Assembly (NCBI RefSeq): GCF_900177485.1
Contig: NZ_LT840186.1
Location: forward strand, 1,240,001 to 1,304,000
Source of the DNA: Candidatus Pelagibacter sp. HIMB1321
GTDB lineage: Bacteria > Pseudomonadota > Alphaproteobacteria > Pelagibacterales > Pelagibacteraceae
Reading direction: 5' to 3'
DNA length: 64,000 nt
Shown: positions 926 through 41,016 of the stretch, piece after piece
Numbering within the stretch: position 1 is the first letter of the stretch
Layout: each line of letters starts with the position of its first letter
Position numbers and translations under genes: made by a program
Notes under the pieces: generated by a model
What the model was told of the DNA's origin: nothing
The model's database searches: none
What the model saw: the letters and a program-made list of their open reading frames with translations, nothing else

Positions 926-1696
926 TTGATAATCAAAATAGACAATAAAACAGTTTATGCATCTGATGCTGGTCAGGGAGTTGATTTAGATAAAAAGACA
1001 ATAGTTTTTTTACACGGAAGTGGGTTATCCCATATAGTTTGGTCTCTTGTAGAGCAATACTTTTCAAATAAAAATTTTAATGTACTTTCAATTGATTTGC
1101 CAGGACATGGAAACTCGGAAGGACCATGTCTTAAAAGTATCGAATTAATTGCTGATTGGTTAGAAAAAGTTTTTGATCAATTAAATTTGGGTCAAATAAT
1201 ACTAATTGGACATTCTCAAGGATGCTTAGAGGCACTAGAATACTCACACAGATATAAAAAAAGATTAGAAAAAATAATTTTTATTGGAGGCTCTTATAAA
1301 ATGCCAGTCCATCAAGATTTAATTAGCTTAGCTGAAAGTGGAGATTCTGATGCGGTAAAATTAATGATGAAATGGGGTTATGAAGGTTCAAAAAAGTTTA
1401 TTGGAGGAAATCCAATTGAAAGAATTATTCAATCTCCAAGAGATATAAAAGAAATGTTAGCAGTAGATTTAATTGCATGTAATAACTATCAGAATGGTAA
1501 GGTTGCAGCAGAAGATATTAGCTGTCCTAGTTTATTCATATTTGGTCAATTAGATAAAATGGTAAACATAGAAAAGGGAAAAAAATTTTCTCATATGGTA
1601 AAAAATTCAACACAACACATCATAAATTGTGGTCATATGATTATGATTGAAAATGCTTTTGAAATGAGAGACAAGATTTCTGAATTTTTAAAATGA
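926..1696 (+). CDS. Alpha/beta hydrolase in the DMSP cluster
   Basis: This 256-residue alpha/beta-hydrolase fold protein has an oxyanion-hole HGSG at residues 30-33, a nucleophile elbow GHSQG at 95-99 (Ser97), an FGQLDKMV segment that probably supplies the acid, and GHM with the likely catalytic His237. It starts at TTG 926 just after AGGTGA (917-922), 7 bp behind dmdB, and ends with a 4-base ATGA overlap with dmdA. No signal peptide is visible, so it is probably cytoplasmic. The position between dmdB and dmdA suggests a part in DMSP or methylmercaptopropionyl-CoA turnover, for example as an esterase or thioesterase. The sequence does not give the substrate. Confidence 0.75.
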
Positions 1697-2805
1697 CAAA
1701 AAATTATTCAATCGCAAAATCAAGACGTTTAAGAAGCACTCCATATACTTCAAGAATTGAAAAGCAAGGTGTTACTGCCTACACAGTTTATAACCACATG
1801 TTATTACCAGCTGCTTTTGGTTCTGTTGAGGACTCTTATCATCATCTAAAAAAAGATGTTCAAGTTTGGGATGTTGCAGCAGAAAGACAAGTTGAAATAT
1901 CAGGAAAAGACTCAGCCAAACTTGTTCAACTAATGACCTGTAGAGATTTATCAAAATCTAAAGTTGGCAGGTGTTATTATTGCCCAATTATTGATGAAAA
2001 TGGAAATCTAGTTAATGATCCAGTAATTTTGAAATTAAATGATGATCGTTGGTGGATATCTATTGCAGATTCTGATGTAATATTTTTTGCCAAAGGTTTG
2101 GCCTCAGGGAATAATTTTGATGTTAAAATTACAGAGCCTAATGTTGATATTATTGCAATCCAAGGTCCAAAGTCATTTAGTTTGATGGAAAAAGTTTTTG
2201 GAAAAAAGATTTTAGATTTAAAATTTTTTGGTTTTGAGTACTTTGATTTTAAAGGCATAAGACATCTTATTGCAAGATCTGGTTGGTCAAAACAAGGTGG
2301 ATTCGAAGTTTATGTTGAAAACACTCAGTCAGGTTTAAATTTGTATGATCACCTATTTGAAGTTGGTGAAGAGTTTAATGTTAAACCAGGATGTCCAAAT
2401 TTAATTGAAAGAATTGAAAGTGGGTTGCTCTCTTATGGAAATGATTTTGATAATAATGATAATCCATTTGAGTGTGGATTTGAAAAATATGTAAATTTAG
2501 AATCTGACATAACTTTTTTAGGTAAAGATAAATTAAAAATGATAAAGTCTAATGGAATTTCAAAAAGATTAATGGGTGTGCAGATAGATAAAGAAAATAT
2601 TAGCCTTTCTTCATCTGTTGAAATTAAGAATCATAATAATGATATAATTGGAGATCTTAGATCTGCTTGTTATTCTCCGCACTTTAAAAAGGTTATAGGC
2701 ATCGCAATGATTAATGAACCAAATTGTAAGACTTCTACTAAAGGTACAATCAAAATTGATGATAAATCTTACAGTGTAAGCGTTTGCGAATTACCCTTCA
2801 TTTAG
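1693..2805 (+). CDS. dmdA: DMSP demethylase DmdA
   Basis: DmdA transfers a methyl group from dimethylsulfoniopropionate to tetrahydrofolate, giving methylmercaptopropionate and 5-methyl-THF. The 370-residue protein has the GcvT-like aminomethyltransferase fold, with segments I recognise from SAR11 Dmd[21 protein letters not shown] near the start, [44 protein letters not shown], and [20 protein letters not shown]. This match separates it from glycine-cleavage GcvT and from sarcosine or dimethylglycine dehydrogenases. Its start overlaps the preceding hydrolase by 4 bp, indicating translational coupling. It supplies reduced sulfur and C1 units, a key trait of marine alphaproteobacteria. Confidence 0.93.
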
Positions 2806-40932: not shown

Positions 40933-40985
40933 CTTGTTTAGCGGTTTTTTTAAAGCGCTCGCAATTCAGTTAAATCAGCGCAAAA
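40933..40985 (-). ncRNA. SAM-II-type riboswitch in the metX leader
   Basis: On the minus strand the core GCGCTGATTTAACTGAATTG is followed by CGAGCGC: stem P1 is GCGCT (40981-40977) with AGCGC (40959-40955), enclosing the conserved GATTTAAC loop and ATTGC. A3-rich linker then leads to CCGCTAAAC (about 40944-40936), the 3' pseudoknot strand with the family's GCTAAA. This closely follows the SAM-II (metA motif) consensus as I remember it, and metX is the classic target. SAM-V, a related marine class with a similar core, is the alternative. SAM binding should sequester or terminate upstream of the metX start at 40895. Confidence 0.85.
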
Positions 40986-40987
40986 AA

Positions 40988-41016
40988 TTTGTACTAGAAG
41001 AGACAGATATTGTCAA
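40988..41016 (-). promoter_or_regulatory. Sigma-70 promoter for metX-metW-gloB
   Basis: On the minus strand TTGACA (41016-41011), a perfect -35, is followed after 17 bp by TACAAA (40993-40988). The predicted start, about 7 bases on, coincides with the first base of riboswitch stem P1 (40981). The aptamer would therefore form at the extreme 5' end of the transcript, which supports both calls. Confidence 0.7.

Follow-up and report, generated by a model that had tools for sequence, protein, structure and literature searches.

In Candidatus Pelagibacter ubique HTCC1062, a SAM-II riboswitch was placed before metX (SAR11_0217), in an intergenic region of 191 nt, by Meyer et al. 2009 (PMC2704228), and SAM-II elements before bhmT and metX were repeated by Smith et al. 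2016 (PMC5069961). The bhmT element is a tandem of SAM-II and SAM-V (PMC2704228, PMC11508383). The S. meliloti metA and metZ SAM-II riboswitches have terminators, and in metA a Shine-Dalgarno sequence lies inside the riboswitch (PMC9373788). The crystal structure 2QWY is that of a metX SAM-II riboswitch, an H-type pseudoknot with the ribosome-binding site (RBS) in P2 (PMC10907184, PMC5352136), and a metX SAM-II of Sargasso Sea origin has been described (PMC11508383).

The window, i.e. the 64,000-nt stretch of the Candidatus Pelagibacter sp. HIMB1321 genome analysed here, carries the same class of element before the same gene. Its metX aptamer is the published element in another member of the genus, and the aptamer is already known. 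The intergenic region of 194 nt (191 nt in HTCC1062) runs between hisC (41090, plus strand; above its NCBIfam cut-off) and metX (40895, minus strand). The expression platform of the HTCC1062 element is undescribed in the accessible part of PMC2704228; here, we describe an anti-aptamer. The first-pass annotation mentioned neither this downstream segment nor the earlier publication. A genus-wide platform that erases its own aptamer was not found in the open-licence literature, a coverage outside which the original SAM-V description falls, making absence from print insecure. We propose, with a probability of about 0.6, that this SAM-II riboswitch is transcribed from the first base of its aptamer, that SAM holds the aptamer, and that the SAM-free leader refolds into a hairpin.

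The genes concerned, and a DMSP gene in the same window, are as follows.

40895-39792, minus strand: metX, homoserine O-acetyltransferase (NF001209, 507.8 bits, cut-off 331)
39790-39194, minus strand: metW (TIGR02081, 239 bits, cut-off 189.5)
39189-38470, minus strand: gloB, hydroxyacylglutathione hydrolase (glyoxalase II; TIGR03413, 270 bits, cut-off 200.8)
1693-2805, plus strand: dmdA, DMSP demethylase (NF009133, 577.7 bits)

The first-pass annotation had set the aptamer at the start of a metX-metW-gloB transcript, and this holds, with all three genes above their NCBIfam cut-offs and +1 as a prediction. The distance between metX and gloB was compared in four genomes, using the labels g1-g6 for genera and f1/f2 for families: gloB starts ∼610 nt beyond the end of metX in two genomes of the window's genus (G159 and G253) and in one of g5 (G256), and ∼630 nt after it in one of f2 (G188), with room the size of metW between. 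Co-transcription of metX and gloB is therefore plausible. In the two g3 genomes, whose metX leaders have no core, gloB is far off on the same contig (G157) or on another contig (G198). In several lineages gloB thus accompanies metX and could be regulated with it, in which case SAM level may also bear on methylglyoxal detoxification, as the first-pass annotation suggested. The dmdA gene is ∼37 kb from metX on the opposite strand, and therefore outside the metX-metW-gloB transcript; that MeSH from the DMSP genes feeds the metX pathway is a weak suggestion.

The genus was represented by 87 metX leaders from distinct genomes, which are no single random sample: 27 from among the best RF00521 matches, 39 leaders reached through metX protein matches, 20 further RF00521 matches (mostly lower-scoring) and the window. 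L007 and L015 were dropped from the best RF00521 matches as non-metX. By the protein route, 40 of the 47 matching genus genomes were taken (four full-length and three partial matches were left out), and one of the 40 was dropped as a duplicate genome, giving 39. Uncounted were G065, where the contig ends inside the metX leader (the partial leader, L138, holds CTCTCAATTC), and G134 (L160), a contig-end sequence without the core. Minimum free energy (MFE) folds were made for 68 leaders (57 unique; L140-L159 left out), of which 38 of the 57 were aligned. Outside the genus, we read all 15 matching genomes of the family and 25 of 44 from f2; two of these 40, both g3, lack the core. Rfam was run on 15 non-genus metX leaders (seven f2, three g5, three g4, one g2 and one g6).

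The promoter and aptamer comprise the following features.

41016-41011, minus strand: -35 element TTGACA, read from the sequence
40993-40988, minus strand: -10 element TACAAA after a 17-nt spacer, a 4/6 match to TATAAT, read from the sequence
40981, minus strand: predicted transcription start, coinciding with the first P1 base and placed by the position of the -10 element
40981-40933, minus strand: SAM-II aptamer, 49 nt, from the RF00521 and RF01726 matches
40981-40977 with 40959-40955, minus strand: aptamer stem P1, GCGCT/AGCGC
40976-40960, minus strand: aptamer loop L1
40943-40933, minus strand: 3′ strand of the pseudoknot, CGCTAAACAAG

On the minus strand, TACAAA is followed directly by six T and then by GCGCT from 40981, and the predicted start would lie 86 nt upstream of metX. 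The promoter named by the first-pass annotation (TTGACA, 17 bp and a -10) is thus present, and its start on the first P1 base is borne out as a prediction from the -10 position. The distance from TTGACA to CTGATTT is 37-39 nt in all 87 genus leaders (37 nt in 1, 38 nt in 82 and 39 nt in 4). Among the 41 metX-anchored genus leaders (40 fetched plus the window), TTGACA and YGATTT are spaced by 38 nt in 40 and by 39 nt in one. Across the order, TTGACA stands 37-42 nt before YGATTT in 74/79 core-bearing metX leaders; within 60 nt, it was not found in 5/25 f2 leaders. Since this spacing is fixed across leaders, the predicted start on the first P1 base is a conserved trait. TACAAA is the commonest -10 hexamer of the genus leaders (39/87). 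A generic promoter scan of the window did not list the metX promoter, because its rule for the -10 element insists on T as the sixth base.

The aptamer, which lies before the methionine genes metX-metW, reads GCGCTGATTTAACTGAATTGCGAGCGC...CCGCTAAACAAG across 40981-40933 of the minus strand. Two SAM-II covariance models matched it over their full length, in sequence and in P1 structure: SAM_alpha (RF00521) at 40991-40917 with 30.8 bits and E 1.9e-5 (model positions 1-79 of 79; gathering cut-off 36), and SAM-II (RF01726) with 28.9 bits and E 8.6e-4 (positions 1-60 of 60; gathering cut-off 44). The RF00521 E-value was computed for 251 nt and 4227 Rfam families. Both scores are significant though below the gathering cut-offs, which are reporting thresholds and no biological feature, and a scan of the whole window at gathering thresholds gave zero Rfam matches. 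A search of the complete genome, a single contig of 1.32 Mb, gave it as the sole strong SAM_alpha match (E 2.4e-5; the next has E 0.9). The SAM-II-type core named by the first-pass annotation is confirmed at metX.

By its sequence, the pseudoknot P2 could form between GCG (40962-40960) and CGC (40943-40941). Within the 38 aligned genus leaders, P1, most of L1 and GCTAAA are invariant, and the first base of the pseudoknot CGC varies (C, T or A). No covariation of P1 or P2 was found within the genus, and the pseudoknot is identified from sequence. SAM_alpha matches at E ≤ 0.05 occur in 130/151 genus genomes, with 0/151 reaching the RF00521 cut-off; the same search gave sub-cut-off matches in 2/14 control genomes. 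One genus leader, L065 from G159, agrees with the window leader in aptamer core, promoter spacing and anti-aptamer, and its Rfam scores are 26.7 and 31.8. The core (YGATTT...TTGC...GCTAAA) is present in 41/41 metX-anchored genus leaders and, outside the genus, in 2/2 g2, 3/3 g4, 7/7 g5, 1/1 g6 and 25/25 f2 leaders; it is absent from both g3 leaders (0/2). Six of seven f2 orthologues exceed the RF00521 cut-off (L091, L095, L100, L101, L103 and L113; L092 is below it), which ties the metX-leader RNA to its Rfam family. Three g5 leaders match RF00521 below the cut-off (25.5-28.7 bits), and the five leaders from g4 (three), g2 and g6 (one each) gave no Rfam match at E ≤ 0.1. The putative g2, g4 and g6 aptamers are assigned by core pattern and position.

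Downstream of the aptamer, the leader carries sequences that can pair back into it.

40925-40915, minus strand: anti-aptamer segment CTCACAATTCA, pairing with 40968-40962 and 40960-40958 in the aptamer
40910-40905, minus strand: outer arm GTCAGT, pairing with 40979-40974 and closing the alternative hairpin in the MFE fold
40933-40926, minus strand: GTTTTTTT, which the MFE fold pairs with AAAAAAAC (40951-40944), an A-rich linker, in the alternative hairpin

All 87 genus leaders have CTC-(0-4 nt)-AATTC downstream of the aptamer, complementary to TGAATTG and GAG in its L1/P1 region. Of 380 cells across the 38 aligned leaders, 98.9% hold standard pairs; with the register shifted by 1-3 columns, the share is 24.5-47.7%. 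No pair shows two-sided covariation (0 pairs), because the aptamer half is invariant in these leaders; conservation of the sequence by itself might be explained otherwise. The anti-aptamer helix is part of the MFE fold in 56/57 unique genus leaders, in a long hairpin that excludes the aptamer, and the outer arm, variable in sequence, forms at least 3 bp in 53/57 and is missing in a few (e.g. L010). Shuffling the segment from aptamer to start codon gave a mean of -12.29 kcal/mol compared with the observed -17.50 kcal/mol, with 0/100 sets as low, and pair counts were likewise unmatched by shuffled post-aptamer segments (0/100 sets). When only the outer arm was shuffled, 3.49 outer pairs formed compared with 5.54 observed (0/100 sets), a moderate excess: 64% of these shuffles still reached 3 outer pairs. 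The window leader alone folds with a z-score of -2.77, and 0/200 shuffles fold equally well. The variant leaders L031 and L044 carry CTCGCATAATTC instead, which is still paired in the MFE fold of L044. Beside the helix, one position is imperfect across the 57 leaders: most have A or T opposite C there, whereas L031, L044 and L072 show a bulge or lack a base; this may tune the alternative fold.

The order of transcription suggests how the two folds would compete. SAM-II aptamers can bind SAM while emerging from the polymerase. The 49-nt aptamer would be transcribed first, leaving a short interval in which SAM could bind the finished aptamer before the competing strand is made. Some 20-28 nt later, CTCACAATTCA and then GTCAG would follow, able to pair with aptamer L1 and with the 3′ and 5′ sides of P1. 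Without SAM, the leader would refold into one long hairpin and the aptamer would be destroyed; with SAM, the pseudoknot would hold and CTCACAATTCA would stay unpaired. When the growing window leader was folded every 4 nt, the model predicted local hairpins at 45-53 nt, P1 with an A/U hairpin at 57-65 nt, the alternative hairpin from 69 nt and its outer arm by 77 nt. The alternative fold of the window leader is computed at -18.0 kcal/mol and a P1-forced, loop-masked fold at -7.6 kcal/mol, energies in which ViennaRNA ignores the pseudoknot and SAM and which are no measure of the true fold balance.

Since metX is a methionine gene, the SAM-bound state is presumably OFF. We infer that refolding acts on metX expression through translation initiation on the metX-metW-gloB message or through its decay, and not through intrinsic termination or Shine-Dalgarno masking. 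The mean unpaired probability of the start codon is 0.56 in the free leader and 0.38 with the aptamer masked, with a wide spread between leaders and no shuffle control, and in the window leader the anti-aptamer has no part in the predicted change; a translational effect thus finds scant support in the predicted accessibility of the start codon. Once released and unstructured, the leader might even promote translation in the SAM-bound state.

Of the usual SAM-II platforms, an intrinsic terminator was not found in the genus metX leaders, nor a Shine-Dalgarno sequence inside P2 of the window leader. A terminator-like site was defined as a perfect stem of at least 5 bp with 3 G-C pairs, a loop of 3-22 nt and a T-rich tail, no more than 60 nt after the core; shuffled 60-mers satisfied this rule in 2/200 cases. 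Such a site occurs in 0/87 genus leaders and in 33/38 core-bearing metX leaders outside the genus (25/25 f2, 7/7 g5, 1/1 g6, 0/3 g4 and 0/2 g2). With a shorter-loop rule the counts were 0/25 in f2 and 0/41 in the genus, and with a pattern derived from the f2 sequences themselves 25/25 f2 leaders matched. The CTC..AATTC segment is found in 0/38 core-bearing metX leaders outside the genus (g2 0/2, g4 0/3, g5 0/7, g6 0/1, f2 0/25). The aptamer of the g6 leader, L085, also contains GAATTGCGAGCGC, yet CTC..AATTC is missing from this leader; the segment is therefore no automatic companion of GAATTGCGAGCGC. In g2 and g4, AAGG or GAGG follows GCTAAA, and a short hairpin before the start was seen by eye. 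Shine-Dalgarno masking was rejected on the motifs: AGGA, GGAG and GAGG are absent from the pseudoknot strand CGCTAAACAAG, and an SD-like 4-mer lies near the start in 3/87 genus leaders (none in the window leader) and 4-16 nt upstream in just 9/53 window ORFs.

The metX leaders share with S. meliloti a SAM-II element upstream of methionine genes, where in metA translation starts away from the aptamer (PMC9373788), and differ from it in the terminator and Shine-Dalgarno counts above. They share with 2QWY an H-type pseudoknot before metX, and differ in that the RBS lies in P2 there. The bhmT tandem in the same genus shares the SAM-II aptamer. Four tandem-type genus leaders (L007, L015, L133 and L134) have a hairpin and T-run (4/4) and, unlike the metX leaders, no CTC..AATTC (0/4); Rfam confirmed SAM-V in the two scanned, L007 and L133.

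In six of the seven g5 leaders (L076, L077 and L079-L082), an in-frame ATG lies 6-7 nt past the core and closely follows AAGGG; a terminator-like hairpin separates this ATG from the following in-frame one. The sequence of 2QWY presumably resembles these g5 leaders rather than the window leader. The g5 layout resembles the AUG1/terminator/AUG2 arrangement described for S. meliloti metA. In the g3 leaders L083 and L086, which have no core before metX, another reading frame reaches metX (by eye).

Four other explanations were weighed. That the resemblance to SAM-II is due to chance and no riboswitch exists is very improbable: both scores miss their gathering cut-offs and the permissive search also gave matches in control genomes, but the E-value of 1.9e-5, the conservation of promoter and aptamer in 87/87 leaders, the f2 orthologues above the cut-off and a SAM-II published at the same gene (PMC2704228) led us to reject it. 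The first-pass annotation had looked to covariance models of both SAM-II and SAM-V; the SAM-II side stood, with significant matches short of gathering scores, and the SAM-V side fell. SAR11 does have SAM-V riboswitches (PMC2704228), and the window genome has one before a MetY-like gene, but at the metX leader the SAM-V model (RF01826) scored 14.5 bits with E 7.2 against a cut-off of 41, and we give a SAM-V riboswitch before metX almost no credence.

The remaining two concern the platform. The SAM-stabilised pseudoknot and the adjoining GTTTTTTT could together be an intrinsic terminator, with the anti-aptamer merely locking read-through transcripts open. In the genus leaders listed, a U-run of 5-9 does directly follow the pseudoknot strand, and f2, g5 and g6 leaders bear terminator-like hairpins. 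However, only weak pairs adjoin the U-run, which is down to 5 in L031 and L044; no hairpin terminator was found in 87/87 genus leaders by a scan that is blind to pseudoknots; and the anti-aptamer is transcribed after the U-run and so cannot be its antiterminator. We regard this embedded terminator as quite improbable. It is less doubtful, though still unlikely, that the downstream segment serves as an entry site for RNase E or Rho, or as a protein or sRNA site, and that the predicted hairpin is incidental. The lack of two-sided covariation fits such a role, as does the segment being single-stranded once the aptamer has folded; against it, complementarity continues into the sequence-variable outer arm in 53/57 unique leaders, and aligned variants mostly keep pairing. 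We therefore favour the SAM-II riboswitch whose leader refolds into a hairpin when SAM is absent.

Related elements were seen elsewhere. The SAM-V riboswitch of the window genome (78.2 bits, above cut-off) precedes an ORF called MetY-like from a reading of its translation. A protein of ∼57 aa (best Pfam E 0.03) is encoded in 30/151 genus genomes, though not in the window genome, in varied neighbourhoods; it had no match in phages or viral contigs. In 12/12 loci read (L161-L172), a SAM-II-like leader of conserved sequence stands before its gene, GTCY-TGATTTA...CTTGCT-RRGAC...ACGCTAAAGGAG and then ATG; the Shine-Dalgarno sequence falls within the putative pseudoknot strand. Most of these leaders have GTCC/GGAC as P1, and L166 has GTCT/AGAC. 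Further loci of this gene are L116-L128, L131 and L132, and the L116 leader scores 27.5 bits with RF00521, under the cut-off. A second small ORF (MQQLE..., 106-112 aa) adjoins the gene in opposite orientation at 6/12 loci (L162-L165, L167 and L168). A lone SAM-II-like element in G012 (L130), which scores 26.2 bits with RF00521 and so stays under the cut-off, lacks the tandem-type hairpin and T-run and stands before a gene whose translation reads as bhmT-like.

Taken across the lineages, the platforms form a series: a terminator in f2, g5 and g6, AAGG or GAGG in g2 and g4, an anti-aptamer in the genus, and no core in g3. We hold tentatively, at a little under even odds, that the genus has replaced the terminator of several related SAR11 lineages, that a leader of 71-88 nt which is either the SAM-bound pseudoknot or an almost end-to-end, aptamer-erasing hairpin sets the translation or decay of metX-metW-gloB, and that these leaders, having no terminator and nearly always no Shine-Dalgarno sequence, would represent a third kind of platform. 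With its constant core and changing platform, the series allows a direct test of how platforms turn over in a very small riboswitch, and the leader, short and self-contained, is a test case for switching that uses neither a terminator nor a Shine-Dalgarno sequence.
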